Of a stretch of 64,000 nt of DNA, positions 2,400 to 16,350 are shown piece after piece. Position 1 is the first letter of the stretch. Each line of letters begins with the position of its first letter. Location: the NCBI RefSeq assembly GCF_009193155.1, contig NZ_VUKD01000004.1, positions 1-64,000 of the forward strand. The letters run 5' to 3'. Source of the DNA: Georgenia subflava. Lineage in GTDB: Bacteria; Actinomycetota; Actinomycetes; Actinomycetales; Actinomycetaceae. Both the position numbers and the translations under genes were made by a program. Below the pieces are notes generated by a model. That model did not search any database. It saw only the letters and a program-made list of their open reading frames with translations, and had not been told where the DNA came from.

Positions 2400-3074
2400 A
2401 TGCCAAAGGTGCTGAGCGAGAAGGACGTCCAGTCACGCCCTGGCCTGCAGGACTGGCGCGTAGTCGCCCGCCGCCTGCACGGCACGTTCCGCACCGGCTC
2501 GATGGTCGCCGGGATCGACCTCGTCCGGCGCATCGGTGATCTTGCCGAGCAGATGAACCACCACCCGGACATCGACCTGCGGTACTACCGGGTCCACGTC
2601 GTGCTCACCACCCACGACGCGGGCGGTCTCACAGAGAACGACGTCACGCTCGCCAACCGGATCTCCGCCCTGGCCGCCGAGCTCGGCATCGATGCCGAAC
2701 CGGCCAGGGCCAGCCGGGTGGAGATCGCCGTCGACGCCATCGACATCGCCGCTGTGCTGCCGTTCTGGCAAGCCGTGCTCGGGTACAAGAAGGAGGTCCC
2801 GGCGGGGGAGACCCAGGAGTCCTCGGTGGACCTGACCGACCCGGACGGCCGTCGGCCCAACGTCTGGTTCCAGCAGATGGACGTGCGGCGTCCGCAGCGC
2901 AACCGCATCCACGTGGACGTCCACGTGCCCCACGACGTCGCGGAGGCGCGTGTTGCCGCCGCGGTCGAGGCCGGCGGGCACGTCGTGACAGCCGGATACG
3001 CGCCCTCCTGGTGGGTCCTCGCGGACCCGGAGGAGAACGAGGTCTGCGTGTGTACCTGGCAGGCTCGGGACTGA
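2400..3074 (+). CDS. Pterin-4a-carbinolamine dehydratase fused to a VOC (glyoxalase-like) domain
   Basis: 224 aa. Residues about 1-105 are a pterin-4a-carbinolamine dehydratase (PCD/DCoH) domain with the EQMNHHPD signature and a downstream Tyr-Tyr/His pattern. Residues about 108-224 form a VOC/glyoxalase-type domain (VEIAVDAIDIAAVLPFWQAV at its start, PEENEVCVC near its end). The PCD half would dehydrate 4a-hydroxytetrahydropterin. The substrate of the VOC half is unknown; it could simply be a binding domain. The ATG at 2400 has no Shine-Dalgarno but has CACGCT 6 nt upstream, consistent with a leaderless message. The gene lies between ilvD and ilvBNC without obvious link to their pathway. Confidence 0.85.
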   Translation: MPKVLSEKDVQSRPGLQDWRVVARRLHGTFRTGSMVAGIDLVRRIGDLAEQMNHHPDIDLRYYRVHVVLTTHDAGGLTENDVTLANRISALAAELGIDAEPARASRVEIAVDAIDIAAVLPFWQAVLGYKKEVPAGETQESSVDLTDPDGRRPNVWFQQMDVRRPQRNRIHVDVHVPHDVAEARVAAAVEAGGHVVTAGYAPSWWVLADPEENEVCVCTWQARD

Positions 3075-3275
3075 CATTCGCCGCGGTGCCTTGACGAGCG
3101 GGTCAGGAGCCGCGCCCCGCGATCACCCCGCGCACGCGCGCGGCGGTCGGGCGCTTCAAGCACAGATCTGGCGTTCCGCCCGCAGACCGGCACGCCGACA
3201 ACATCACCTCGTCCAACATCACCTCGTCCATTTAGTGAGTCTGTGATCCACGATACGAGACGAAGCATGCGGGGC

Positions 3276-3304
3276 GTGACCTGCGCCGCCGGGAAGGCTA
3301 TGGT
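3276..3304 (+). promoter_or_regulatory. ilvB leader promoter
   Basis: A -35 box GTGACC (3276-3281), a 17-bp spacer and a -10 box TATGGT (3299-3304). Seven nt later comes the ATG of the leader peptide, so transcription should start at that ATG. This is the most complete promoter visible in the window. Confidence 0.75.
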
Positions 3305-3311
3305 GTGGATC

Positions 3312-3359
3312 ATGCAGTTCCGAGTCGTAGTACTTACGCAGCGCGCAGCGGCCCACTGA
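3312..3359 (+). CDS. ilvB leader peptide
   Basis: A 15-codon frame, [15 protein letters not shown], with three Val codons and one Leu codon in a row. It starts where transcription should begin (leaderless) and is followed by a hairpin and a terminator before ilvB. This is the layout of translational attenuation known for ilvB operons in Corynebacterium and Streptomyces: scarcity of charged Val or Leu tRNA stalls the ribosome and prevents termination. Confidence 0.85.
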
Positions 3360-3378
3360 GTCGGGGCACACTGCGCGC
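3341..3378 (+). promoter_or_regulatory. ilvB attenuator, upstream hairpin
   Basis: GCGCGCAG at 3341-3348 is perfectly complementary to 3371-3378. The 5' arm lies inside the leader-peptide frame, so ribosome position controls whether it can form. The exact antiterminator pairing could not be established by eye. Confidence 0.6.
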
Positions 3379-3379
3379 A

Positions 3380-3414
3380 CCCCTCGAGATCCCTGTCGGG
3401 ACGAGGGGTTTTTT
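3380..3414 (+). terminator. ilvB attenuator terminator
   Basis: The outer stem CCCCTCG (3380-3386) pairs with 3402-3408, with an inner TCCC/GGGA stem, followed by six T at 3409-3414. It lies 20 nt after the leader stop and 75 nt before ilvB, so it is an intrinsic terminator inside the mRNA leader. Confidence 0.88.
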
Positions 3415-3489
3415 CATGCCTCGCACCGCGGGGCGCACCGCACGACCTGCACGACCCCGGCATCACCCGAGCACCACAGGAGGTACATG

Positions 3490-5346
3490 ATGGCCAAGGC
3501 ACCGCACCCGGCGCCGCCACGCCCCGCAGCTCCGGCGGCGTCCTCTCCCGTCCGGGTGGCGCCGTCCGTAGCGCCTGCGCCGCGAGCAGCGATCGACGAG
3601 TCCTCCACCGGTGCGCGCAACATCGTCCGAGCGCTCGAGGAGTCCGGCGTCGACACCATCTTCGGCATGCCGGGCGGGGCGATCCTGCCCACCTACGACC
3701 CGCTGTACGACTCCACCAGGCTGCGGCACATCCTCGTTCGGCACGAGCAGGGCGCCGGCCACGCCGCGACCGGCTACGCGGCCGCCACCGGCAAGGTCGG
3801 GGTGTGCATGGCCACCTCCGGTCCCGGGGCCACCAACCTCATCACCGCCCTGGCGGACGCCCACATGGACTCCGTCCCGGTCGTGGCGATCACCGGCCAG
3901 GTCGGCGCGGCCATGATCGGCACCGACGCCTTCCAGGAGGCAGACATCGTCGGTGCCACCATGCCGGTGACCAAGCACTCCTTCCTCGTCACCGACGCCG
4001 ACGAGATCCCGTCCCGCATCGCCGAGGCATTCCACATCGCCTCGACCGGACGGCCCGGTCCGGTGCTCGTCGACGTCGCAAAGTCCGCGCAGCAGGCCGC
4101 CTCGAGGTTCGTCTGGCCGGCCGAGATGGACCTGCCCGGCTACCACCCGGTGACGAAGCCGCACGCCCGGCAGGTCCGCGAGGCGGCCCGGCTGCTGGCC
4201 ACCGCCCGCAAGCCGGTCCTCTACGTCGGCGGCGGAGCCATCCGCGCCAACGCCTCGCCCGAGCTGCGCAAGCTGGTCGACCTCTCTGGCGCCGCCGTCG
4301 TCACCACGCTCATGGCCCGCGGCGTCGTGCCCGACTCCCACCCGCAGAACCTCGGCATGCCCGGCATGCACGGAACCGTGCCGGCGGTGGCGGCACTGCA
4401 GCAGGCCGACCTCGTCGTCGCCCTGGGGGCCCGGTTCGACGACCGTGTCACCGGACGGCTCGACAGCTTCGCGCCGAAGGCGGCCATCGTCCACGCCGAC
4501 ATCGACCCGGCCGAGATCTCCAAGAACCGCACGGCGGACGTCCCGATCGTCGGTGACCTCAAGGAGGTCATTGCCGACCTGAGCGTCGAGCTCAAGGCCG
4601 CGCACGCCCAGCACGGCCTGCCGGACCTGGAGAAGTGGTGGAAGCAGCTCGACGAGCTGCGCACCACCTACCCGCTGGGCTGGACGCCCACCGAGGACGG
4701 CCTCATGGCGCCGCAGCACGTGATCTCCCGGCTCGGCGAGATCTCCGGCCCGGAGAGCATCTACGTCGGCGGCGTCGGCCAGCACCAGATGTGGGCCGCG
4801 CAGTTCATCTCCTACGAGCACCCCCGCACGTGGCTCAACTCCGGCGGGCTCGGGACGATGGGCTACTCCGTCCCCGCCGCCATGGGCGCCAAGGTCGGCA
4901 TGCCGGACACCACCGTCTGGGCGATCGACGGCGACGGCTGCTTCCAGATGACCAACCAGGAGCTGGCCACGTGCGCGCTGGAGGGCATCCCGATCAAGGT
5001 CGCGCTGATCAACAACTCCTCCCTGGGCATGGTCCGCCAGTGGCAGACCCTCTTCTACGAGGGCCGCTACTCCAGCACCGACCTGCACACGGGCCACGAG
5101 ACCCGGCGGATCCCGGACTTCGTCAAGCTCGCCGAGGCGTACGGGTGCGTCGGGCTGCGGTGCGAGTCGACCGCCGACGTCGACGCCACCATCAAGCGCG
5201 CCATGGAGATCGACGACCAGCCCGTCGTCGTGGACTTCGTGGTCAGCCGGGACGCGATGGTCTGGCCGATGGTCGCCGCCGGCGTGAGCAACGACGACAT
5301 CCAGTACGCGCACGGGATCACCCCGGCGTGGGACCGCGACGAGTGA
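3490..5346 (+). CDS. ilvB: Acetolactate synthase, large (catalytic) subunit
   Basis: 618 aa TPP enzyme that condenses two pyruvates to acetolactate, or pyruvate with 2-oxobutyrate. The first ~37 residues are Pro/Ala-rich and nonconserved. Catalytic Glu86 sits in [13 protein letters not shown]; the central FAD/DHS-like domain spans about 215-350; the C-terminal TPP site has GDG near 480 and NNSS near 507. Two ATGs are adjacent (3487 and 3490). AGGAGG at 3478-3483 is 6 nt from the second and only 3 nt from the first, so 3490 is preferred. First gene of ilvBNC, controlled by the leader at 3312-3414. Confidence 0.96.
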
Positions 5347-5359
5347 GCAGGAGCAGCAG

Positions 5360-5887
5360 ATGAGCACCAGGCACACCCTGTCCGTGCTGGTGGAGAACAA
5401 GCCCGGCGTGCTGACACGCGTGACGGCCCTGTTCGCCCGGCGGGCCTTCAACATCCACTCCCTGGCCGTTGGCGAGACCGAGCATCCGGAGATCTCGCGG
5501 ATCACCGTGGTCGTCGACGCCGCCGAACTGCCGCTGGAGCAGGTGACCAAGCAGCTCAACAAGCTCGTCAACGTGCTCAAGATCGTCGAGCTCGAGCGAG
5601 ACGCCTCCGTCCAGCGCGAGCTGCTGCTCGTCAAGGTCCGGGCCGACGACGCCTCCCGCACCGCCGTGCTGCAGGTCGTCGAGCTCTTCCGGGCGCACGT
5701 CGTCGACGTGGCCCCGGAGGCGGTCACGATCGAGGCCACCGGCTCGCACAACAAGATCCGCGCGCTCCTGGCGGCCCTCGAGCCGCACGGGATCCGCGAG
5801 ATCGTCCAGTCCGGGGCGGTCGCGATCACCCGCGGCTCGCGGTCGATGACCGACCGCACCGTCGAGCGGCCCGTCCGCTCCGCCTGA
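5360..5887 (+). CDS. ilvN: Acetolactate synthase, small (regulatory) subunit
   Basis: 175 aa. An N-terminal ACT domain (about 3-80, [17 protein letters not shown]) binds valine for feedback inhibition, and a C-terminal acetolactate synthase small-subunit domain (about 85-160) contacts the IlvB catalytic chain. The start is 13 nt after the ilvB stop with AGGAG upstream, so it is co-transcribed with ilvB. Length and domain order are typical of actinobacteria. Confidence 0.97.
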
Positions 5888-5949
5888 CCGGCATCCTTGC
5901 CGCCACCAACCACAACAACCGACGCAGTCCCAACCGAAGGAGAACCACC

Positions 5950-6978
5950 GTGGCCGAGCTGTTCTACGACGACGACGCCGACCTGTCCCTCATCCAGTCC
6001 AAGAAGGTTGCCGTCGTCGGGTACGGCAGCCAGGGGCACGCGCACGCGCTGAGCCTGCGCGACTCCGGCGTCGACGTCACCGTCGGCCTGCGCGAGGGGT
6101 CCTCCTCGCGTGCGAAGGCGGAGGAGCAGGGCCTGGCCGTCGCCAGCGTCGCCGACGCCGTCAAGGGCGCCGACCTCGTCGTCATCCTCGCCCCCGACCA
6201 GGTGCAGCGGACGCTGTACGCCGAGGACATCGCCCCGAACCTCAAGTCCGACGCCACGCTGCTCTTCGCGCACGGCTTCAACATCCGCTTCGGCTACATC
6301 AAGCCCGAGGCCGGCCACGACGTCGTGATGGTCGCCCCGAAGGGGCCGGGCCACCTGGTGCGGCGCGAGTACGAGGCCGGCCGCGGTGTGCCGGTGATCG
6401 TCGCCGTCGAGCAGGACGCCTCCGGCCAGGCCTGGGACGTCGCGCTGAGCTACGCCAAGGCCATCGGCGGCCTGCGCGCGGCCGGCATCAAGACCACCTT
6501 CACCGAGGAGACCGAGACCGACCTGTTCGGTGAGCAGACGGTCCTGTGCGGCGGTGTGTCCCAGCTGATCCAGTACGGCTTCGAGACGCTGACCGAGGCG
6601 GGGTACCAGCCCGAGGTGGCGTACTTCGAGGTGCTCCACGAGCTCAAGCTGATCGTCGACCTCATCTACGAGGGCGGCATCGCCAAGCAGCGCTGGTCGG
6701 TGTCCGACACCGCCGAGTACGGCGACTACGTCTCGGGCCCGCGGGTCATCACGCCGCAGGTGAAGGAGAACATGAAGGCAGTGCTGGGCGACATCCAGTC
6801 CGGTGCCTTCGCCGAGCGGTTCATCAACGACCAGGACGCGGGCGGCCCCGAGTTCAAGGAGCTGCGTGCCAAGGGGGAGGCGCACCCGATCGAGGCCACC
6901 GGCCGCGAGCTGCGCAAGCTCTTCGCCTGGGTCGAGACCACCGACGCCGACTACACCGAGGGCAGCGCCGGCCGCTGA
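5950..6978 (+). CDS. ilvC: Ketol-acid reductoisomerase (NADP+), class I
   Basis: 342 aa. Converts acetolactate or acetohydroxybutyrate to the dihydroxy acids. The N-terminal Rossmann domain has GYGSQG at 24-29, and the C-terminal knotted domain contains the metal-binding acidic/His cluster ([14 protein letters not shown]). The length fits class I enzymes. The start is GTG with AAGGAGA 7 nt upstream, 62 nt after ilvN, completing the ilvBNC operon. Confidence 0.97.
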
Positions 6979-7011
6979 CCGGCGCGCTCCGCCGGCCCGG
7001 TTTGGGACGTG

Positions 7012-7082
7012 GTCGGTGACCCGGTGACCGGTGGCCCGAGGACGCGGTGACCCGGTGACCCGGCGCCCTCCGTGGTGACCCG
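7012..7082. repeat. GGTGACCCG-type short repeats after ilvC
   Basis: At least five imperfect copies of ggtgacccg/ggtgaccgg in about 70 bp between ilvC and leuB. No coding content was recognised. Confidence 0.6.
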
Positions 7083-7170
7083 CGCGACGCGGCCGACAGC
7101 GCCCTCCCCGGTGCCCCAGCGACCCGGCGTGCGGCTCACGCAGGCGACCGGCGCTCGTGCGGCAGCCACG

Positions 7171-7213
7171 ACGGTGAGGATTCGGTGCGAATGGCGCACC
7201 GAATCCTCACCGT
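7171..7213. repeat. Long palindrome, copy A (ilvC-leuB gap)
   Basis: A perfect 19-bp inverted repeat (7171-7189 with 7195-7213) around a 5-nt loop, with core cggtgaggattcggtgcg. The same sequence recurs at 25030-25072 inside a gene. It has no T-tract, so it is probably a dispersed palindromic repeat rather than a plain terminator. Confidence 0.75.
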
Positions 7214-7263
7214 CGGGGCCACGCGGCGCGCAACGCTCCGCGGGACCGCGCCGCGAAGACCGC

Positions 7264-7278
7264 TGTCACATATTGAGA
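7264..7278. promoter_or_regulatory. Possible IclR-type operator before leuB
   Basis: The 15-mer TGTCACATATTGAGA shares T.TCA.....TGAGA with the perfect palindrome in front of leuC. In Corynebacterium the IclR-type regulator LtbR controls both leuB and leuCD, so a shared site is expected. The match is imperfect. Confidence 0.35.
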
Positions 7279-7319
7279 TTGCTATCCCGTCAGTTGGACG
7301 GAGGAGGTAGGTTCGCGGC

Positions 7320-8363
7320 ATGACGCGCGAGATCAAGCTGGCAGTGGTGGCAGGCGACGGTATCGGTCCCGAGGTTGTGGCCGAGGGGCTCAAGGTCCTC
7401 GACGCCGCTCTCGCAGGCACCGACGTCTCCGTGAGCACCACCGCGTTCGACCTGGGCGCCGACCGCTGGCACCGCACGGGAGAGACCCTCACCGACGCGG
7501 ACCTCGAGGCGATCCGGGAGCACGACGCCATCCTGCTGGGCGCGATCGGCCACCCGTCGGTCCCCTCCGGTGTCCTCGAGCGCGGCCTGCTGCTCAAGCT
7601 CCGGTTCGCGCTGGACCACTACGTGAACCTGCGGCCCTCGCGCCTGTACCCCGGCGTCCCCACCCCGCTGGCCGCCCCCGGAGACGTCGACTTCGTCGTC
7701 GTCCGCGAGGGCACCGAGGGGCCGTACGTCGGCAACGGCGGCGCGATCCGCGTCGGCACGCCGGCCGAGGTGGCGAACGAGGTCTCCGTCAACACCGCCT
7801 ACGGGGTGGAGCGCGTCGTCCGCGACGCCTTCGCCCGTGCCCACGCACGTCCACGCAAGAAGCTGACTCTCGTCCACAAGCACAACGTCCTCGTGCACGC
7901 GGGGCACCTGTGGCGGCGCACCGTCGAGGCCGTCGGGACCGAGTACCCCGAGGTCGCAGTCGACTATGCGCACGTCGACGCGGCGACCATCTACCTCGTC
8001 ACCGACCCGGCACGCTTCGACGTGATCGTGACCGACAACCTCTTCGGTGACATCCTCACCGACCTCGCCGCCGCCATCACCGGCGGCATCGGCCTGGCCG
8101 CCTCCGGGAACATCAACCCCGAGGGCACCACCCCGTCGATGTTCGAGCCCGTCCACGGCTCGGCGCCGGACATCGCCGGCCAGGGCAAGGCCGACCCGAC
8201 CGCCACCGTGCTCTCGGTCTCGCTCCTGCTCGAGCACCTCGGGCTGGACGCCCCGGCCCGCGCCATAGCCGACGCGGTCGCCGCCGACATCGCCGAGCGC
8301 GACGGCACCCCGCGCTCGACGACGACCGTCGGTGACGCGCTGGTCGCGCGAGTATCCGGCTGA
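7320..8363 (+). CDS. leuB: 3-isopropylmalate dehydrogenase
   Basis: 347 aa isocitrate/isopropylmalate dehydrogenase family. It oxidises and decarboxylates 3-isopropylmalate with NAD+, and probably 3-methylmalate from the citramalate route. Seen: an N-terminal GDGIGPEV motif, the substrate loop [13 protein letters not shown] near 125, and the metal/NAD signature [14 protein letters not shown] near 237, with [14 protein letters not shown] further on. ATG at 7320; GGAGGAGGT ends 11 nt upstream. It is not coupled to ilvC (341-bp gap with repeats). Confidence 0.96.
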
Positions 8364-8557
8364 CCCCGCCGGAACAAGGAACCAGGGCGCCCACCCCGCG
8401 CGTCCCGTCCGCGGTCCACAGCGGTCCGCGCCCCGCCGTCGGACGACGACGGACCTGCCGGCGTCGCGGTGAGGACCCCACGGCCCGACCACCGAGCACG
8501 GCCGACGAACCAGCAGCCGGTGTACGGCCTCGACCGCAGGTGACACCCGGCCGGCCC

Positions 8558-8622
8558 GGTCATCGGGCCTGGGCCGGTCACCGGGCCTGGGCCGTCACCG
8601 GGCCTGGGCCGGTCACCGGGCC
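8558..8622. repeat. 18-bp tandem repeat between leuB and ilvE
   Basis: About 3.6 copies of an 18-bp unit (ggtcaccgggcctgggcc). The remainder of the 372-bp gap shows no gene. TACCGT at 8694-8699 could be the ilvE -10 box. Confidence 0.8.
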
Positions 8623-8735
8623 GGACGAGCCGCGGCCGGCGCGCGGCCTGGTTCGCGACCGGCCGCCCCTCCCCGCCGGCGGGCAACCGGCGATACCGTC
8701 TGACGCAGCACCCGCACCCGAGAAGGGTTTGACTC

Positions 8736-9893
8736 ATGAGCACCTCCTCCGACCAGGTGGCGACCCTGTCCGGCCCCACCGCGGCCGAGCTCCGGCCCGC
8801 GGCCGAGCTCGCCCCCCGCTTCCCGCTGACCGCCAACGCGTCCCCGGCAGCTGCCGACGCGCACGCCCAGGTCATGGACCACCTCACCTTCGGCGTCGCG
8901 TTCACCGACCACATGGCCCGCGCCTCCTGGACGCCCGCGGAGGGCTGGCACGCCCACCGTGTAGGTGCCTTCGCGCCCCTGACGCTCTCGCCGGCCGCGG
9001 CAGTGCTCCACTACGGTCAGGAGATCTTCGAGGGCCTCAAGGCGTACCGGCACGACGACGGCTCGGTGTGGACCTTCCGACCTGGCTTCAACGCCGCCCG
9101 CCTCAACGCCTCAGCCCGCCGGCTGGCGCTGCCTGAGCTGCCCGAGGAGGACTTCGTCGCCTCCCTCGCCGCCCTCGTGGGCGCGGACGAGCGGTGGGTG
9201 CCCGAGGCCGCCGGGTCGAGTCTCTACCTCCGGCCGTTCATGATCGCCACCGAGCCGTTCCTGGGGGTGCGGTCCGCGCACGCGATCGAGTACCTCGTCA
9301 TCGCCTCGCCGGTCGGTCCGTACTTCGTCCACGGCTTCCAGCCGGTCGCGATCTGGGTCGCCCAGGACTACCACCGGGTCGGACGCGGCGGGATGGGAGC
9401 AGCCAAGACGGGCGGTAACTACGCCGCCTCCCTGCTGCCCCAGCAGGAGGCCTACGCCAAGGGGTTCGAGCAGGTCTGCTTCCTCGACGCCGCCACCGGC
9501 ACCCATCTCGAGGAGCTCGGCGGCATGAACGTCTTCGTCATCGACGCGGACGGGACCGTGCGCACGCCCTCGCTCACGGGCACCATCCTCGAGGGGGGCA
9601 CCCGCGCCTCGATCCTGCAGCTCCTGCGCGACGGCGGCCGGACCGTGCGCGAGGAGACGATCGCCCTCACGGAGCTGCTCGAGCAGATCCGCTCGGGCGA
9701 GGTCGTCGAGGCGTTCGCGTGCGGCACCGCCGCGGTCATCACCCCCATCGGCCGGCTGGCGGGAGAGGACTTCGACGTCACCGTGGCAGACGGGGCGCCC
9801 GGTCAGGTCACCACCGAGCTCTACACCACGCTCACCGACATCCAGTACGGACGCCGCGAGGACCCGCACGACTGGATGTACCGGCTGGTCTGA
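8736..9893 (+). CDS. ilvE: Branched-chain amino acid aminotransferase
   Basis: 385 aa fold-type IV PLP enzyme. It transfers the amino group of glutamate to the 2-oxo acids of valine, leucine and isoleucine. Lys224 in GAAKTGGNYAAS is the PLP Schiff-base lysine; LHYGQEIFEGLKAY and LEELGGMNVF are further family motifs. ATG at 8736 with AGAAGGG upstream. It lies between leuB and cimA, so it completes the branched-chain pathway locally. The stop codon overlaps the first unit of a tandem repeat. Confidence 0.96.
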   Translation: MSTSSDQVATLSGPTAAELRPAAELAPRFPLTANASPAAADAHAQVMDHLTFGVAFTDHMARASWTPAEGWHAHRVGAFAPLTLSPAAAVLHYGQEIFEGLKAYRHDDGSVWTFRPGFNAARLNASARRLALPELPEEDFVASLAALVGADERWVPEAAGSSLYLRPFMIATEPFLGVRSAHAIEYLVIASPVGPYFVHGFQPVAIWVAQDYHRVGRGGMGAAKTGGNYAASLLPQQEAYAKGFEQVCFLDAATGTHLEELGGMNVFVIDADGTVRTPSLTGTILEGGTRASILQLLRDGGRTVREETIALTELLEQIRSGEVVEAFACGTAAVITPIGRLAGEDFDVTVADGAPGQVTTELYTTLTDIQYGRREDPHDWMYRLV

Positions 9894-9975
9894 TGCCGGT
9901 GCGTCGTCGTGCCTGGTGCCGGTGCGTCGTCGTGCCTGATGCGGCTGCGTCGTCGTGCGTGATGCCGGTGCCTCG
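9892..9975. repeat. 23-bp tandem repeat after ilvE
   Basis: About 3.6 copies of a 23-bp unit (gatgccggtgcgtcgtcgtg plus 3 nt), starting at the ilvE stop codon. No T-tract or strong hairpin was seen. Confidence 0.8.
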
Positions 9976-10076
9976 CGCGGCCCGGCGCCGGTGCGCCGTC
10001 GATGTGCTGGCGCGTCGTCGACCGGGTCTCTGTCCAGATCCTGGCCACCGGCGCCACATGGCGGATCGTGCTGTGG

Positions 10077-10082
10077 CAGACT
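10077..10082 (+). promoter_or_regulatory. Probable -10 box of the cimA leader transcript
   Basis: CAGACT is followed by 7 nt and the GTG of the leader peptide at 10090, the same spacing as the ilvB leader. The -35 region is unconvincing. Confidence 0.45.
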
Positions 10083-10089
10083 GTGGCCC

Positions 10090-10119
10090 GTGACGCAGTC
10101 CCAGCTCATTATCGGCTAG
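10090..10119 (+). CDS. cimA leader peptide (Leu-Ile-Ile)
   Basis: A 9-codon frame starting with GTG reads MTQSQLIIG, followed by TAG. Leu-Ile-Ile codons lie in a row near its end, directly before two hairpins, the second an intrinsic terminator. Since CimA opens the citramalate route to isoleucine, Ile codons are the expected sensor. The start codon sits 7 nt after a -10-like box (leaderless). It is very short, so confidence depends on the architecture. Confidence 0.65.
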   Translation: MTQSQLIIG

Positions 10120-10146
10120 CGCATCGGGCACACCCGCCCGATGCGC
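10119..10146 (+). promoter_or_regulatory. cimA attenuator, first hairpin
   Basis: A perfect 11-bp stem (10119-10129 with 10136-10146) starting at the last base of the leader stop codon. A ribosome on the Ile codons or the stop would mask its 5' arm. Confidence 0.7.
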
Positions 10147-10175
10147 AGACCTCCCGTACCTCGGGGGGTCTTTTT
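10147..10175 (+). terminator. cimA attenuator terminator
   Basis: A 9-bp stem (10147-10155 with 10163-10171, one G-T pair) followed by five T, immediately after the first hairpin and 142 nt before cimA. It is placed to stop transcription before the gene. Confidence 0.82.
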
Positions 10176-10316
10176 GTTGCCGGGGCCACCTCACCCGGCA
10201 GCGCCGCCGCCGGGAAGGTCCCGGAAGGCACCGGTAGACGGCACCACCCCGCCGGTCGCTGGGAGTCGCGTCACGACCGCCGGTCGTACCGCACGACCCG
10301 TCGCAAGGAGCACCGC

Positions 10317-11966
10317 ATGTCCAGCACAGCCACCACCGGGCCGGCCCGGGCCGAGCAGGCGCGCGTCGAGCAGGCGCGCGCCACCGTCCAGGTCTACGAC
10401 ACCACGCTGCGCGACGGCGCCCAGCAGGAAGGCATGAACCTCTCGGTGGCGGACAAGCTCGCCATCGCCCCGCTGCTGGACGAGCTCGGCGTCGGGTACA
10501 TCGAGGGTGGCTGGCCGGGCGCGATCCCCAAGGACACCGAGTTCTTCGCGCGAGCGGCGAAGGAGCTCGACCTCAGGCACGCACGTCTGGCCGCCTTCGG
10601 GTCCACCTGCAAGGCCGGTTCGCAGCCGCACGAGGACGCCCAGGTGCGGGCCCTGGTGGAGTCCGAGGCGCCGGTGATCACCCTCGTCGCCAAGTCCGAC
10701 CTCCGGCACGTCGAGCGGGCGCTGCGCACCGACGGGCAGGAGAACCTGCGGATGATCGCAGCCACGGTGCGCTACCTCGTCGGTCTCGGGCGCGAGGTCA
10801 TCCTCGACGCCGAGCACTTCTTCGACGGCTACCGGTACGACCCGGTCTACGCGCTGTCCTGCGTGCGCACCGCCTTCGATGCCGGTGCCGCCACCGTGGT
10901 GCTGTGCGACACCAACGGCGGCATGCTGCCCGACTGGGTGACCCAGGTCGTCTCCGAGGTCCGGGCCGCGACCGAGGGGCGGCTGGGGATGCACGCCCAC
11001 AACGACTCCGGCTGCGCCGTCGCCAACACCCTGGCCGCCGTCGCCGCCGGCGCCGGGCACGTCCAGGGCACCGTCAACGGCTACGGTGAACGCACCGGCA
11101 ACGCGGACCTGCTCACCTGCGTGGCCAACCTCCAGCTCAAGCACGGCACCACGGTGCTGGCGGAGGACGGGCTCGCCGAGTCGAGCCGCATCTCCCACGC
11201 GATCTCGGAGATCACGAACATCAGCCCGTACGGCCGCCAGCCGTACGTCGGGGCCTCTGCCTTCGCGCACAAGGCCGGGCTGCACGCCAGCGCCATCCGG
11301 GTGGACCCGGACCTGTACCAGCACATCGACCCGGTCGCCGTCGGCAACGACATGCGGATGCTCGTCTCGGAGATGGCCGGCCGCGCCTCCATCGAGCTCA
11401 AGGGCCGCGAGCTCGGGTTCGACCTCGCCGGTCAGGCGGAGCTCCTCGGGCGGGTGACGCAGCGGGTCAAGGACGCCGAGGCGGCCGGCTACACCTACGA
11501 CGCCGCCGACGCCTCCTTCGAGCTGCTGCTGCGGGCGGAGCTCGAGCACGGGAGGGTGCCGCACTTCTTCGACGTCGAGAGCTGGCGGACCTTCGTCGAG
11601 CACCGGCCCGGCAAGGACGGGCAGGTGGACTCCGAGGCGACGGTGAAGCTGCGCACCGGGCACGGGCGCATGATCAGCACCGGCGAGGGCAACGGCCCGG
11701 TCAACGCCCTCGACCACGCCCTGCGCGGAGCGCTGGTGGGCACCTACCCGGAGATCGAGGACTTCGAGCTCATCGACTACAAGGTGCGCATCCTGGACAC
11801 CCAGCAGGGCACCGACGCCACCATCCGCGTCCTGATCGAGACGTCGGACGGTGTGGCGAGCTGGTCGACCGTCGGCGTGGGCACGAACATCATCGAGGCC
11901 AGCTGGGAGGCCCTGACCGAGTCGATCGTCTGGGGACTGCTGCACCACGGCGTCGAGCCCCGCTGA
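10317..11966 (+). CDS. cimA: Citramalate synthase
   Basis: 549 aa of the DRE-TIM metallolyase family. It condenses pyruvate with acetyl-CoA to (R)-citramalate, a threonine-independent entry to isoleucine. The metal/catalytic motif DTTLRDGAQQEGMNLS is at 28-43; the HAHNDSG metal ligands are near 225; a C-terminal LeuA-type allosteric domain spans about 425-540. EGGWPGAIPKDTEFF is typical of citramalate synthases rather than 2-isopropylmalate synthases, whose equivalent stretch differs. ATG at 10317 with AAGGAG upstream. Downstream steps need LeuCD and LeuB, both in this window. Control is probably by the leader at 10090-10175. Confidence 0.9.
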   Translation: MSSTATTGPARAEQARVEQARATVQVYDTTLRDGAQQEGMNLSVADKLAIAPLLDELGVGYIEGGWPGAIPKDTEFFARAAKELDLRHARLAAFGSTCKAGSQPHEDAQVRALVESEAPVITLVAKSDLRHVERALRTDGQENLRMIAATVRYLVGLGREVILDAEHFFDGYRYDPVYALSCVRTAFDAGAATVVLCDTNGGMLPDWVTQVVSEVRAATEGRLGMHAHNDSGCAVANTLAAVAAGAGHVQGTVNGYGERTGNADLLTCVANLQLKHGTTVLAEDGLAESSRISHAISEITNISPYGRQPYVGASAFAHKAGLHASAIRVDPDLYQHIDPVAVGNDMRMLVSEMAGRASIELKGRELGFDLAGQAELLGRVTQRVKDAEAAGYTYDAADASFELLLRAELEHGRVPHFFDVESWRTFVEHRPGKDGQVDSEATVKLRTGHGRMISTGEGNGPVNALDHALRGALVGTYPEIEDFELIDYKVRILDTQQGTDATIRVLIETSDGVASWSTVGVGTNIIEASWEALTESIVWGLLHHGVEPR

Positions 11967-11969
11967 CCT

Positions 11970-12164
11970 CGGCCCAGGCGTCGCGCGTCACCGGCCCCAC
12001 GCCGGGAGTGACCGGCCCCACGCCGGGACTGATGGGCGGCGTAGACGGTCATGCGTGACCGGCCCCGCGCCGGGACCGGCGGCCCGGGCGTCGTGCGTGA
12101 CCGGCCCTACGCCGGGACGGCTCGGCGGCCCAGGCGTCGCGCGTGACCGAGCCCACGCCGGGGG
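11970..12164. repeat. Degenerate tandem repeat between cimA and the lipoate-ligase gene
   Basis: Five copies of a core like gtgaccggccccacgccgg, partly nested in a longer unit containing ggcggcccaggcgtcg. It fills almost the whole gap. Confidence 0.75.
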
Positions 12165-12180
12165 CTGCCCCGCGGCGCCA

Positions 12181-12186
12181 TAGGGT
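12181..12186 (+). promoter_or_regulatory. -10 box, leaderless lipoate-ligase gene
   Basis: TAGGGT followed by 6 nt and the ATG at 12193. No Shine-Dalgarno sequence. Confidence 0.6.
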
Positions 12187-12192
12187 TGGGCC

Positions 12193-13242
12193 ATGCACGG
12201 TGAGTACAAGGTTCCTGGTGGCAAGCTCGTCGCGGTCGACCTCGAGGTCGAGGACGGACGCCTCGCCCGGGTGCGGGTCTCCGGAGACTTCTTCCTGGAG
12301 CCCGACGACGCCCTCGAGGACATCAACGCCGCACTGACCGGTATGCCCGAGGCCGCGGACGCCGAGCAGCTCGCCCACGCGATCCGCGGGGCCCTGGACG
12401 ACGGCGTGAGCCTGGTCGGCTTCTCCCCGGAGGCCGTCGGAATCGCGGTGCGCCGCGCGATGGGGCACGCGAGCAGCTGGTACGACCACACCTTCGACGT
12501 CATCCACGGCGACCCGGTCCACCCCGCCCTCAACGTCGCGCTCGACCAGGTCATCCCGGAAGAGGTCGCTGCCGGGCGGCGCGGTCCGACCCTGCGCATC
12601 TGGGAGTGGAACGCCCCCCTCGTCGTCATCGGCTCCTTCCAGTCGGTGCGCAACGAGGTCGACCAGGCCGGCCTCGACAGGCACGACATGATGGTCGTGC
12701 GCCGCATCTCCGGCGGTGGCGCCATGTTCATGGAGGCGGGCAACTGCATCACCTACTCGCTGGTGGTGCCCACCTCGCTGGTGGAGGGCCTCAGCTTCGA
12801 GCAGTCCTACGCGTTTCTGGACGACTGGGTGCTCGGCGCGCTCGCGGACGTCGGTGTCCGCGCCCGGTACGTCCCGCTCAACGACATCGCCTCCGAGCAG
12901 GGCAAGATCGGCGGCGCCGCGCAGAAGCGGTTCGCCTCCGGCGTCGTGCTGCACCACGTCACCATGAGCTACGACATCGACGCCGACAAGATGCTGGACG
13001 TCCTGCGCATCGGCCGCGAGAAGATGTCCGACAAGGGCACCAAGAGCGCGAACAAGCGCGTCGACCCCATGCGGTCGCAGACCGGCATGGCGCGCGAGGA
13101 CATCATCGACGCGTTCATCGAGCACTTCCGCGGTCGCTACGACACCCGGCTCTCGGACTACACGCCCGCCGAGCTGGCGCGGGCCGAGGAGCTCATGGAG
13201 ACGAAGTTCCTCTCCGACGCGTGGACCTACCGGGTGCCCTGA
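12193..13242 (+). CDS. Lipoate-protein ligase family protein with N-terminal accessory domain
   Basis: 349 aa. Residues about 1-90 (HGEYKVPGGKLVAVDLEVED, GDFFLEPDD) look like the small accessory domain that normally sits at the C-terminus of LplA. Residues about 95-349 form the biotin/lipoate A/B ligase catalytic domain, with RRISGGGAMFMEAGN near 171 and a lysine-containing KIGGAAQKR segment near 238. It would attach lipoate or octanoate to E2/H proteins in the cytoplasm. The histidine often found after the SGGG motif is replaced (AMFME), so the exact acyl substrate is uncertain. ATG 12193 is supported by the -10 box 6 nt before it. Confidence 0.8.
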   Translation: MHGEYKVPGGKLVAVDLEVEDGRLARVRVSGDFFLEPDDALEDINAALTGMPEAADAEQLAHAIRGALDDGVSLVGFSPEAVGIAVRRAMGHASSWYDHTFDVIHGDPVHPALNVALDQVIPEEVAAGRRGPTLRIWEWNAPLVVIGSFQSVRNEVDQAGLDRHDMMVVRRISGGGAMFMEAGNCITYSLVVPTSLVEGLSFEQSYAFLDDWVLGALADVGVRARYVPLNDIASEQGKIGGAAQKRFASGVVLHHVTMSYDIDADKMLDVLRIGREKMSDKGTKSANKRVDPMRSQTGMAREDIIDAFIEHFRGRYDTRLSDYTPAELARAEELMETKFLSDAWTYRVP

Positions 13243-13386
13243 GCGGCCGTCCGACGCCGTCCACGCCGCCCGCGACGGGCGGTCACGTCGTCCGAGAGCC
13301 GAGCACGCGTCATCCGCGCCGATGGTTCCGCCTCGATGATGGCGGCGCCGAACGGGGGCCGAGATGAACTGGGGCCGAGAGGGTGG

Positions 13387-14235
13387 TCAGGGCGGCGTCG
13401 GCCGGGCACCGAAGACGGCGGTGCCGACGCGCACGATCGTCGCCCCGGCCGCGACGGCGATCTCGAGGTCGCCGCTCATGCCCATGCTCAGCTCGACGGC
13501 GTCGCCCGTGCCGGGCGCCCCGCTCGCGAGCACCTGGTCGCGGACCTGGGCGAGCCTGTCGTAGGAGGCCCGGACGACGCCCGTGTCGGTGGAGTTGGCC
13601 CCGATCGTCATGAAACCGCGCAGTCGCAGGTGCGGGAGCGCGCCGACGGCGGCCGCGAGATCGGCTGCCTGTCGGGGGTCGGTCCCGGCCTTGGTGTCCT
13701 CCCCCGAGGTGTTCACCTGGATCAGCACGTCGAGCGGCGTGGCGTCTCCGGTGCCTCTCTCGGTGTCGCCATCCGTGCCGGAGCCAGTGCCGACGTCGGT
13801 ACCTGTGCCCTCGGTGCGTGTGCCGGTGCTGGCACCGTGGCCGGTGCGGGGTCCGGTACTGCCGTCATCCGCCGAACGCCGCGCCACGGCACCGTCCAGC
13901 CGCCCGGCCAGGCGCAGCGAGTCCACGGTCTGCACGCAGCTCGCCCAGCGCAGCACCTGATTGACCTTGTTGGACTGCAGGTGGCCGATGAAGTGCATCT
14001 CGTGCGCCGGAGTGCCGGGCTCGGCGAGCCCCGGTCCGGTGCCGACCAGCTCCTGGGCGCGGTTGTGCCCCAGCAGGTCCGCGCCGGCGGCAAGGGCGGT
14101 CCGCACGGCCGACAGCGGCTGCGTCTTGACCGCCAGCAGGACGCGAACACCTGCCGGATCACGGCCCGCCCCGGTCGCGGCAGCGTCGATGCGACGGCGT
14201 ACGTCGGCGAGGTTCGCGGCAATGGCGTCGTCCAC
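13387..14235 (-). CDS. yggS: YggS-family pyridoxal phosphate homeostasis protein
   Basis: 282 aa, longer than the usual ~230. An alanine-racemase-like TIM barrel binds PLP through the lysine in LLAVKTQP (about residue 37). HFIGHLQSNKVNQVL, RGFMTIG and SMGMSGDLEIAV are family motifs. It buffers PLP and lacks known catalytic activity. Residues about 121-165 are an inserted Gly/Thr/Asp low-complexity stretch absent from relatives. GTG at 14235 is preferred because TAGGGT lies 6 nt upstream on the minus strand (leaderless). Confidence 0.9.
   Translation of the reverse strand: MDDAIAANLADVRRRIDAAATGAGRDPAGVRVLLAVKTQPLSAVRTALAAGADLLGHNRAQELVGTGPGLAEPGTPAHEMHFIGHLQSNKVNQVLRWASCVQTVDSLRLAGRLDGAVARRSADDGSTGPRTGHGASTGTRTEGTGTDVGTGSGTDGDTERGTGDATPLDVLIQVNTSGEDTKAGTDPRQAADLAAAVGALPHLRLRGFMTIGANSTDTGVVRASYDRLAQVRDQVLASGAPGTGDAVELSMGMSGDLEIAVAAGATIVRVGTAVFGARPTPP
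13742..13875. repeat. Low-complexity GGT/GC-rich insert inside yggS
   Basis: Imperfect short repeats (ggtgccggt, gtgccgac and similar) encoding a Gly/Thr/Asp-rich segment, in frame and without a stop. Confidence 0.6.
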
Positions 14236-14265
14236 GGTCCGACCCTACGACGCGCGCGCCGTCGG

Positions 14266-15063
14266 TCAGGCGACGACGACTGCGCTCGTCGGGTCGAGGG
14301 TGACGCCGACGCTCAGCGCGCGGTGGTCGGACATCCCGAGGTTGTGCGAGCGGCCGGCCTCGGTCACCCGAACGTCGCCGTCGACGAGGATGTGGTCGAG
14401 CTGCTCGGTGGGGTCGGTGAGCGGGAACGTCGTGGCGCTCACCAGCGGACGGAGCCCGCTGTGCCGGGAAGGCTCGCCGCCGGCCAGGTTCAGGTCGCCC
14501 ATCAGCACGAACGGGCGCGGCAGCTCGCGGGTGCCCCGCACCAGATGGCGAAGCTGGGCGACGTTCCACTCGGGGATGAACGTCAGGTGCGTCGCGGCGA
14601 CGCCCAGCGGCCCCTCCGGCGTGTCGACCACGGCGGCGACGGCGGTCCGTTGCTCGTCCTTGACGAGGACAGGTCGCTGCCGGCCCGGGAACGTCACCGG
14701 CACCCGCTGCTGCGGCCCGGGCAGGGAGAGCACCTTCCAGTGCTCGACCGGGAAGCGGCTGAGCAGCGCGATGCCGTACACGGACGCCTCGGGCTGCTCG
14801 TCGCCGGTGGCCGCGGTCCACAGGTCCGGCAGACCGTGCATGGTCGCGACGAACCGGTGCTCCACGGCACCCATCGCCTCGGCGGCCACGCCCGTCAGGT
14901 CCGCGCCGTGGGAACGTGGCTGGTCCCGGTCGACCTCCTGCATCGCCAGGATGTCGGCGTCCAGGCTCCGCACGGCCGCGGCGAAGCGGTCGACGTCGAC
15001 CTGGTCGTCCTCGAGGGACCGGCCGTGGAGGATGTTGAAGGTAGCGATCCGCACCGGCCCCAT
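14266..15063 (-). CDS. Endonuclease/exonuclease/phosphatase family protein
   Basis: 265 aa single-domain metallophosphatase-like fold. It begins with RIATFNILHG, has the metal-binding Glu in LAMQEVDRDQ, and the C-terminal catalytic elements GDLNLAGG and SDHRALSV. No signal peptide is seen, so a cytoplasmic hydrolase of a phosphodiester or phosphomonoester is likely; the substrate is unknown. ATG 15063 has GGAGG 7 nt upstream on the minus strand. It is divergent from the nucleotidyltransferase-like gene at 15112. Confidence 0.85.
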   Translation of the reverse strand: MGPVRIATFNILHGRSLEDDQVDVDRFAAAVRSLDADILAMQEVDRDQPRSHGADLTGVAAEAMGAVEHRFVATMHGLPDLWTAATGDEQPEASVYGIALLSRFPVEHWKVLSLPGPQQRVPVTFPGRQRPVLVKDEQRTAVAAVVDTPEGPLGVAATHLTFIPEWNVAQLRHLVRGTRELPRPFVLMGDLNLAGGEPSRHSGLRPLVSATTFPLTDPTEQLDHILVDGDVRVTEAGRSHNLGMSDHRALSVGVTLDPTSAVVVA

Positions 15064-15099
15064 TGTGGCCTCCGCCGTGCGCCGGCGCCCGTCGTCGGG

Positions 15100-15105
15100 T
15101 AGACC
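15100..15105 (+). promoter_or_regulatory. -10 box, leaderless nucleotidyltransferase-like gene
   Basis: TAGACC is followed by 6 nt and the ATG at 15112, with no Shine-Dalgarno. Confidence 0.5.
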
Positions 15106-15111
15106 CGCACC

Positions 15112-15750
15112 ATGGACGATGACGACAGGGCAGACCTGCACGAGGCGATGCGGATCGTCGGTGCGGCCCTCGGGGGAGCACAGATCCCGTTCGCGCTCGC
15201 AGGTGGTTTCGCGGCCTGGGTGCACGGCGCGCCGCAGTCGGAGCACGACGCCGACTTCGTGATCCGCGAGCAGGATCTCTCCACCGCGCGCGACGCCCTC
15301 GAGGCGACCGAGCTGCGGGTGGAGGACCCGGTGGAGAACTGGCTCTTCAAGGCCTGGAACGGCGAGGCGCTCGTCGACATCATCTTCCGGCTCGACGGCG
15401 ACCCGATCGGTGACGACCTCTTCGAACGTACCGACAGCCACGACGTCTTCGGTGTCCCGATGCCCGTCATGCAGGCCACGGACATCCTGTCGGAGAAGCT
15501 GCGCGTGCTGACCGAGCAGCGCTGCAACTACTCCAACCTGCTGCCGGTCGCCCGGGCGCTGCGCGAACAGGTGGACTGGGACGCCGTCGCCCGGCGGACC
15601 GAGGGCAACCCCTACGCGGCGGCGTTCTTGTACCTGCTCGAGGCGCTCGACGTCATCGACCGGGTGCCCGGCTCTACCGGCGCCGACACGGAGCCGGAGT
15701 CCGGCGCCGGCGCGGAGCCGGGAGCCGTCACGGGGCACACGGCGTCCTGA
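15112..15750 (+). CDS. Nucleotidyltransferase-fold protein
   Basis: 212 aa. The pattern GGFAAWVHGAPQSEHDADF matches the GG...DxD signature of pol-beta-type nucleotidyltransferases, as in AbiEii/MNT-like proteins. Residues about 180-212 are an acidic/Gly/Ala low-complexity tail. No obvious antitoxin partner is adjacent; the next gene is a DNA-repair protein 18 nt downstream. The substrate is unknown, and it may be a stand-alone housekeeping member rather than a toxin. Confidence 0.7.
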   Translation: MDDDDRADLHEAMRIVGAALGGAQIPFALAGGFAAWVHGAPQSEHDADFVIREQDLSTARDALEATELRVEDPVENWLFKAWNGEALVDIIFRLDGDPIGDDLFERTDSHDVFGVPMPVMQATDILSEKLRVLTEQRCNYSNLLPVARALREQVDWDAVARRTEGNPYAAAFLYLLEALDVIDRVPGSTGADTEPESGAGAEPGAVTGHTAS

Positions 15751-15768
15751 GGCTGGCACACTCGTCCT

Positions 15769-16350
15769 ATGAGCCATGACCTGCATATCACCGGTGACGA
15801 CGCGGCGGACGAGCTGCTCAGCAAGGATCCGCTGGCGCTGCTGATCGGGATGCTGCTGGACCAGCAGGTCGCGATGGAGACCGCGTTCTCCGGGCCGAAG
15901 AAGCTCGCCGACCGGCTCGGCGGTCTCGACGTGCGTGCCCTGGCCGAGATGAACCCCGACGAGCTCACCGAGGTGTGCCGCACCCCGCCCGCGGTCCACC
16001 GTTACCCGGGCTCGATGGCCGGTCGCATCCAGGCACTGTGCGCGGCGCTCGTCGCCGACTACGACGGTGACGCCGCGGCGCTCTGGACGGCGGGCGACCC
16101 GGACGGGGCCGAGGTGCTCCGGCGGCTCAAGGCCCTGCCCGGATTCGGTGACCAGAAGGCGAAGATCTTCGTCGCGCTGCTCGGAAAGCAGTACGGGCTG
16201 CGGTCCGAGGGCTGGCGCGAGAGCGCCGGCGACTACGGCGAGGAGGGGTCGTACCGCTCCGTCGCGGACATCGTCGACGCCGACTCCCTCACCCGGGTCC
16301 GCGAGAACAAGAAGGCGATGAAGGCGGCGGCCAAGGCGGCGAAGAAGTAG
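15769..16350 (+). CDS. HhH-GPD-type base-excision repair family protein
   Basis: 193 aa. The helix-hairpin-helix segment LPGFGDQKAKIFVALLGK lies near 123-140, and the N-terminal LLIGMLLDQQVAMETAF resembles the start of HhH-GPD glycosylases. There is no C-terminal four-cysteine cluster, so no 4Fe-4S centre. It belongs to a small actinobacterial HhH-GPD group of unproven substrate. A Lys/Ala-rich C-terminus could bind DNA. The ATG at 15769 is 18 nt after the preceding stop, so co-transcription is possible, although CACACT 6 nt upstream could also serve as its own -10. Confidence 0.8.
   Translation: MSHDLHITGDDAADELLSKDPLALLIGMLLDQQVAMETAFSGPKKLADRLGGLDVRALAEMNPDELTEVCRTPPAVHRYPGSMAGRIQALCAALVADYDGDAAALWTAGDPDGAEVLRRLKALPGFGDQKAKIFVALLGKQYGLRSEGWRESAGDYGEEGSYRSVADIVDADSLTRVRENKKAMKAAAKAAKK

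Follow-up and report, generated by a model that had tools for sequence, protein, structure and literature searches.

The window, the whole 64,000-nucleotide stretch of DNA that was analysed, carries the genes ilvB-ilvN-ilvC-leuB-ilvE followed by cimA. The genes ilvB, ilvE, and cimA were named by family match, and ilvN, ilvC, and leuB by reading. A leader element sits between ilvE, which stops at 9893, and cimA, which starts at 10317 (Table 1). The first-pass annotation had described a nine-codon frame (MTQSQLIIG) followed without a gap by an 11-bp hairpin and a terminator with five T residues, and all of these parts were read where it had placed them. The hairpin, called stem 1 here, takes as its first base the G of the leader TAG stop codon. 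The T-run of the terminator spans 10171-10175, and its first T is paired. The terminator is the longest of three overlapping sites returned by the terminator scan, compared to 0.1 expected from shuffled sequences. The RNA from 10090 to 10180 folds with a z-score of -5.1, and none of 200 shuffles was equally stable. The sequence AAGGAG, which resembles a ribosome binding site, directly precedes the cimA ATG 140 nt past the terminator. No Rfam 15 family matched at E <= 1 in window positions 5000-16000 or 2900-3600. T-box riboswitches were among the families without a match in 5000-16000, and the Ile signal is accounted for by the leader ORF. Short degenerate GC-rich repeats (GTGCGTCGTCGTGCCTGATGC..., GTGACCGGCCCCACGCCGGGA...) flank cimA on both sides (window 9900-10000 and 11975-12170).

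Table 1. Features of the cimA leader element and of its sister element before ilvB, in window coordinates.
Feature	Position	Strand	Details and basis
ilvB sister element	3312-3414	+	leader 3312-3359; stem 1 3341-3348/3371-3378; terminator 3379-3409 plus T-run; gap 0
ilvB, acetolactate synthase large subunit	3487-5346	+	NF005860, 1103.6 bits (cut-off 881)
Extended -10, TGG-CAGACT (TGGCAGACT)	10074-10082	+	sequence reading and motif TGN[TC]ANNNT
Leader ORF MTQSQLIIG*	10090-10119	+	GTG start 10090-10092; TAG stop 10117-10119; probably leaderless
Ile codons, proposed regulatory	10108-10113	+	ATT 10108-10110; ATC 10111-10113; followed by GGC, then TAG
Stem 1, 11 bp	10119-10146	+	10119-10129 with 10136-10146; loop 10130-10135; proposed antiterminator or ribosome-position sensor
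Intrinsic terminator	10147-10175	+	10147-10156 with 10162-10171; U-tract to 10175; terminator scan and reading
cimA, citramalate synthase	10317-11966	+	NCBIfam TIGR00977, 605.7 bits (cut-off 450)

The hexamer CAGACT (10077-10082) of the extended -10 ends 7 nt before the leader GTG, and the leader ORF is therefore probably leaderless. The first-pass annotation had called the frame leaderless outright; the spacing fits that call, and the leaderless state itself is deduced from it. Of 94 distinct cimA elements, 80 have the motif TGN[TC]ANNNT 22-60 nt ahead of stem 1 (3.1 expected from shuffles), a less biased test than the start codons in our leader table, which were chosen with the help of the -10 and are wrong in some rows (overlong starts in L048, L114, and L144, for example). 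An in-frame start codon is found 6-7 nt past the motif in 63/94 elements, 10 nt past it in 11/94, and 5-11 nt past it in 81/94. This spacing fits leaderless or nearly leaderless transcripts. Leaderless transcripts make up 17% of the total in S. lividans according to the available part of PMC8079986. A generic sigma-70 consensus scan returned no promoter, and its hexamer rules do not suit a -10 of this type.

The distribution of the element was determined with a covariance model (R1) built on 28 diverse elements. The CimA relatives consisted of 29 loci of the window's family (L003-L031, own excluded) and 80 loci from named genomes, and R1 was run against the window together with all 29 family loci and 69 of the named loci. 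The element was located upstream of cimA in 47 places, which are the window, 15 of the 29 family loci, and 31 of the 69 named loci. Carriers include members of Cellulomonas (C. carbonis included), Cellulosimicrobium, Isoptericola, Demequina, Pedococcus, Nocardioides, Nonomuraea, Acrocarpospora, Planotetraspora, Kutzneria, Amycolatopsis, Lentzea, Pseudonocardia, and Motilibacter. R1 did not match in 14 of the 29 family loci (L012, L019-L031), at the Brachybacterium locus (L054), or at the searched loci with non-actinobacterial titles. The other 11 named loci (L094, L099, L101, L103, L105-L111), which are non-actinobacterial or distant, were covered by a pattern scan only, and it found nothing there. 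Dropped rows were the L113 match, which at E 5.3 is noise, and three short matches (14-16 bits, model positions 50-73).

A class sample of 394 genomes gave a model match in 236 (E <= 0.01) under stricter filters that lose weak matches, and CimA in 310 (E <= 1e-90). Match and CimA occur together in 226 genomes, a match only in 10, CimA only in 84, and neither in 74. A match may be an ilvB or leuS leader, so the number of cimA leaders among the matches is at most 226. The best 30 matches by score all lie upstream of cimA, the window's own among them, and the 40 weaker matches that were fetched comprise leaders of cimA, ilvB, and leuS plus a single LeuA-like case. The first-pass annotation had proposed comparing cimA upstream regions across Micrococcales, and had held that a terminator kept without conserved Ile codons would speak against the leader. 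Ile codons and terminator are both conserved, so that objection does not arise, and the element spreads far wider than Micrococcales. It is not universal, since 84 of the 310 CimA-positive genomes have no model match. Thirty-nine of these 84 belong to family f34 (1.2-2.2 Mb) and 28 to family f26 (3-11 Mb), and this clustering in two families indicates that small genome size is not the whole explanation of absence. A long form of the element, approximately 123-134 nt, occurs in large genomes of one genus (g72), and its hairpins abut likewise in the four examples fetched (L183-L186).

A leader ORF was parsed in all 106 CimA-class instances, which comprise 105 cimA genes and one LeuA-like gene (L145). 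L145, whose product is 31% identical to CimA and whose leader has a Leu run, was left out of the cimA statistics. At least two Ile codons are present in 87 of 92 distinct cimA leader ORFs by a whole-ORF count, and the other five (L011, L035, L186, L191, L195) have a single one. Ile-Ile occurs in 87/92 distinct leaders. The ATT codon is present in 88/92 and absent in L011, L034, L041, and L143. The first-pass annotation had taken the Leu-Ile-Ile run as the signal. The Ile codons are conserved, usually with the rare ATT among them, but the preceding Leu is not, and Leu, Ile, Val, Met, Ser, Glu, and other residues occupy that position. The last nine codons of the leaders contain 101 ATT and 110 ATC among 211 Ile codons (48% ATT), compared to 47 ATT, 990 ATC, and 4 ATA among 1041 in up to 1.3 kb of the cimA coding sequences (4.5% ATT). 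The odds ratio for ATT enrichment is 19 (p = 1.5e-52), calculated from related sequences that are not independent.

The codons track the gene: Ile for cimA, Val/GTA runs for ilvB, and CTT-containing Leu runs for leuS. With automatic start choice, GTA is found in 20/20 ilvB leaders and accounts for 23/47 leader Val codons versus 19/688 in ilvB, and CTT is found in 9/10 leuS leaders and accounts for 10/27 leader Leu codons versus 1/265 in leuS. L156 was left out of the ilvB codon counts owing to its misparsed frame. ATT and ATC are normally read by one tRNA, which makes slow wobble decoding and structure avoidance the candidates for the ATT preference; the two are not separable as its cause. Retention of ATT for base pairing was considered and rejected, since no partner was seen and the A/T-ended choice recurs as GTA and CTT in the sister leaders. 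Selective codon choice in attenuators is known theory, as set out in the accessible part of PMC1183508.

The ilvB gene of the window is preceded by its own element of this kind, with the branched-chain run GTC GTA GTA CTT (element window 3299-3414). It matches the cimA model weakly (18.3 bits, E 0.1) and has a DNA match in 9/9 genomes of the genus, its own included. The leuS gene of the same genome (L216, contig C5) has the leader MTAVVLLTQPR* with a stem 1 and a terminator in the same layout. With cimA, ilvB, and leuS leaders in one genome, there are at least three leaders of this type there. LeuS was the best family at all ten leuS-type loci of the class sample, with six above the cut-off and four partial or lower where the fetched stretch cuts the gene. 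A leader with a Leu run (MKHLLLIESARH*) and this architecture precedes the LeuA-like synthase of L145, so the layout is reused with codons that match the gene. The change of codons to Val or Leu before ilvB or leuS lends further support to the Ile attenuation that the first-pass annotation had suggested for cimA.

Two further features of the ilvB and cimA upstream regions were observed. The first 11 nt of the window's ilvB leader (ATGCAGTTCCG) are those of the cimA leader in the relative L013, an identity hinting at copying between leaders. A motif like CACGATGTGAGACG / ATGNNGAGACG was seen by eye about 35-50 nt upstream of the ilvB leader's -10 (window ~3248-3263) and also upstream of ilvB in L204, L205, L207-L209, L150, L151, and L170. 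It is possibly a candidate operator for a branched-chain regulator. A similar TGAGACG precedes the cimA leader of L179.

A MAFFT alignment of the 28 sequences was used to assess the two hairpins. Base pairing is found in 97.8% of the pair cells, and both partners have changed in 9 of the 18 pairs. The covariation score, 0.322 versus 0.152 in shuffles, was reached by none of 500 shuffles. Four of the five covariation measures gave 0/500 in this way, and for the fifth, the number of pair types, 85/500 shuffles attained the observed value. The foot of stem 1 (GCGC/GCGC) is unchanged in 28/28 sequences, and the terminator foot is mostly unchanged in 28/28 (ACC.C/GG.GGT; conserved ACCTC...GG.GGT TTTT). 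The loops and upper stems of both hairpins vary. The invariant feet place the conservation where the two hairpins adjoin.

Spacing is constrained at both ends of stem 1. The last Ile codon starts 8 nt before stem 1 in 69/94 distinct elements and 7-8 nt before it in 80/94. In the CimA class (106 instances with L145 included), 96 have no nucleotide between stem 1 and the terminator, eight have 1 nt, and two have 2 nt, these and the following gap counts being instances that were not deduplicated. The gap is 0-2 nt in 105/105 cimA instances. The ilvB elements have gaps of 0 (18), 1 (2), and 4 nt (1, the misparsed L156), and the leuS elements of 0 (7) and 1 nt (3). An abutting hairpin of at least 8 pairs and at least 12 kcal/mol accompanies 107/117 element terminators versus 5/45 other terminator-like sites, or 11/45 of those sites if the energy limit is dropped, in a comparison over the loci at hand that was not deduplicated and has a small background of 45 sites. 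The distance from the leader stop to the terminator is 17-37 nt in 90/94 elements, 77 of which fall at 20-30 nt; the four remaining elements have 50-54 nt. The part of PMC4824070 at hand places attenuator terminators >20 bp past the leader stop, a separation that keeps a ribosome on the stop codon from blocking them. At 20-30 nt, as in 77/94 elements, a ribosome at the stop should likewise leave the terminator free to form. Two other pairings were rejected. An extension of stem 1 into the terminator 5' arm via the GGC codon is contradicted by the alignment, in which the GG is not conserved. A weak outer helix closing both hairpins appears in some folds and in 17/137 instances (13 of the CimA class), and as a switch it would use bases after the U-tract and come too late to matter.

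The cimA element follows the order of actinobacterial branched-chain amino acid leaders, namely an upstream ORF with branched-chain codons, a hairpin, and a terminator, and it is leaderless by -10 spacing only. The trp-type hallmark, an antiterminator sharing bases with the terminator, was not seen in the element. Stem 1 abuts the terminator and shares no bases with it. Duplex energies with species swaps, the best contiguous helix, and constrained folding were used to look for a competitor, and no conserved base-sharing antiterminator helix was found in the 94 distinct elements, with the proviso that a helix of invariant bases escapes the swap test. Native combinations were on average no better than species-swapped ones in four comparisons (-15.5 versus -16.0 kcal/mol for the whole stem 1 region). 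The best competing contiguous helix has 4-6 bp in 82/94 elements and 7-10 bp in 12/94. It uses the G-rich 3' half of the terminator in 71/94, and the partners in those 71 are the stem 1 5' arm (22), the loop (32), and the 3' arm (17). When terminator pairs were forbidden, the window RNA folded to stem 1 alone. These data weigh on the idea of a classical attenuator with an overlooked base-sharing antiterminator, such as a pseudoknot or a long-range helix, in which stem 1 is only a pause or protector hairpin. Mutually exclusive hairpins are the textbook arrangement. They also figure in the ilvB models of C. glutamicum and Mtb in the consulted parts of PMC11857589 and PMC13236596, and the 7-10 bp helices of 12 elements would allow them here. 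The shortness of the competing helices in the other 82, their use of differing parts of stem 1, the folding of stem 1 alone when the terminator is forbidden, and the lack of an average native advantage (which a helix of invariant bases would evade) make this arrangement unlikely.

Stem 1 and the terminator coexist thermodynamically, and a view restricted to secondary structure would predict termination in both states. A ribosome footprint reaches 15 nt past the first P-site base, and this value was used to model the ribosome on the leader. With ATT in the A site, 9 of the 11 stem 1 pairs are left (-19.2 kcal/mol). With ATC there are six pairs (-11.0 kcal/mol), with GGC three (-3.6 kcal/mol), and with the stop codon none, leaving a residual hairpin of -1.6 kcal/mol. 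The terminator (-18.0 kcal/mol) folds at every modelled position. Stem 1 varies with ribosome position and the terminator never does, which identifies stem 1 as the part that the ribosome would control. The first-pass annotation expected a stalled ribosome to affect folding, and the model bears this out for stem 1 formation but not as the textbook competition for terminator bases.

The leader ORF with codons for the end product, the Ile runs conserved before cimA, and the intrinsic terminator between the leader ORF and the gene are the components of a ribosome-mediated attenuator in the broad sense. In the instances found across the class, the Ile codons and the terminator are retained upstream of cimA jointly with stem 1 and the spacing of the parts, which supports the Ile attenuation of the first-pass annotation. 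We conclude from these comparisons that the cimA leader is likely a ribosome-mediated transcription attenuator that senses charged tRNA-Ile, and that the element itself is real, widely conserved, and probably functional. In the mechanism that we propose, transcription would start at or beside the GTG, and a ribosome would initiate on the 5' end and trail RNA polymerase. With ample Ile, the ribosome would cross ATT-ATC and reach the TAG, where its footprint would extend over the entire 5' arm of the hairpin. Stem 1 would then be blocked, the terminator would fold, and transcription would end before cimA. With scarce Ile, the ribosome would wait with an Ile codon in the A site and its leading edge at the stem 1 foot, and stem 1 would form first. 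Because stem 1 ends where the terminator starts (gap 0-2 nt), the basal pairs of the terminator could not close in the polymerase exit channel, and the polymerase would read into cimA. An antiterminator at the foot of the terminator is the simplest reading of stem 1 because feedback should raise cimA at low Ile. The steric step, in which stem 1 blocks the terminator by contact, is an evenly balanced proposition if the attenuator is granted. According to the available section of PMC4824070, termination reportedly requires closure of the last 2-3 pairs. Hairpins near terminators change efficiency with T7 polymerase in the literature partly at hand, which neither proves nor excludes the steric step.

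The opposite polarity for stem 1 was considered. A hairpin upstream of the terminator hairpin is reportedly needed for L4-mediated attenuation in the S10 operon, and polymerase could pause at a hairpin like stem 1 during synthesis of the terminator. If stem 1 promoted termination or pausing, a ribosome unfolding it would lower termination, and Ile would induce or only time expression. A rise of cimA when Ile is plentiful has the wrong sign for feedback, and the placement of the Ile codons where a waiting ribosome spares stem 1 is left unexplained, so we regard this polarity as improbable. A constitutive terminator of the ilvE transcript beside a chance short ORF, with the cimA promoter downstream, would agree with a terminator between ilvE and cimA and with the AAGGAG before the ATG, but it is highly implausible given the joint conservation of ORF, -10, Ile codons, stem 1, and spacing in many genomes, also where no ilvE is found within 1.5 kb upstream (e.g. 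L117, L118, L121, L122).

Experiments on ilvB leaders bear on the antiterminator reading of stem 1. Replacement of the LVVI codons by Ala abolished induction of an Mtb ilvB1 reporter in the part of PMC13236596 available, and this supports codon dependence in this leader group by analogy. Removal of the leader start codon of C. glutamicum ilvB lowered expression by 80% according to the accessible portion of PMC11857589. This result opposes our model because the model predicts high cimA expression without leader translation. The C. glutamicum leader differs from the cimA leader in having an extra hairpin. Mutations of leader codons in S. coelicolor ilvB were reportedly without effect (PMC1262725, in the part at hand). 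The S. coelicolor and C. glutamicum mutants warn, by analogy, against simple models.

The route to isoleucine that cimA opens is independent of threonine and is used in metabolic engineering. A widespread Ile sensor before cimA would be immediately usable as a reporter and as a target through which feedback could be relieved. The three sister leaders of the window's genome offer a way to study attenuation without base competition between hairpins, and they also bear on why the regulatory codons are rare A/T-ended ones in GC-rich genomes. The first-pass annotation did not know Ile attenuation of cimA as an established mechanism, and none was found in the literature searched on cimA and citramalate synthase. 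Lopatovskaya et al. are said to have surveyed such attenuators in 2010 (Mol Biol 44:128), and their survey could hold a prior cimA prediction. The terms cimA and/or citramalate have no occurrences in the available parts of PMC1262725, PMC8079986, PMC4833913, PMC13236596, PMC8269248, PMC8914203, PMC11109978, and PMC2965389. The ilvB and leuS leaders of actinomycetes are already in print in sources of which parts were at hand. The cimA leader very probably adds an Ile-specific member to the actinobacterial branched-chain leader group, with a non-overlapping antiterminator as the proposed switch. More tentatively, and with the balance slightly against it, cimA, ilvB, and leuS may each have one example of a general actinomycete attenuator type in which a non-overlapping, GC-clamped antiterminator touches the terminator foot and by its bulk keeps it from closing in the polymerase exit channel, a ribosome on a rare-codon hinge (ATT, GTA, CTT) decides, and the untranslated default is readthrough, the opposite of the trp operon.

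The known systems differ in how closely they resemble the cimA element. The S10 operon leader with its L4-mediated attenuation is similar in that a hairpin upstream of the terminator hairpin matters there. Its hairpins are not known to share bases, and it is protein-controlled, pro-termination, and devoid of a leader peptide. The enterobacterial trp, his, and ilv attenuators share the logic that starved codons stall the ribosome and a terminator decides readthrough. Those attenuators have overlapping segments (2:3 versus 3:4) and leadered ribosome binding, whereas the hairpins of the cimA element share no bases. The actinobacterial ilvB leaders (Streptomyces ilvL MRTRILVLGKRVG, the Corynebacterium ilvB-II motif, Mtb ilvB1) are closer, with a leaderless or nearly leaderless branched-chain ORF, a GC-rich hairpin, a terminator, and a biosynthetic gene. 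The ilvB leaders of the present set carry the rare GTA where the cimA leaders have ATT (20/20 ilvB leaders), and the cimA leader differs from the ilvB group in sensing Ile only and in often stopping at the foot of stem 1. The published ilvB leader models invoke base-sharing antiterminators in the portions available, whereas no conserved one was found for the cimA element; the antiterminator/terminator switch of C. glutamicum ilvB is described through one boundary trinucleotide in the consulted part of PMC11857589. The leuS leaders (S. lividans LeuL2 MRAVRLLLSEPR) have the same order of parts as the cimA leader, with 0-1 nt between the hairpins in 10/10 leuS instances, and they differ from it in that Leu is sensed and the gene is a tRNA synthetase.
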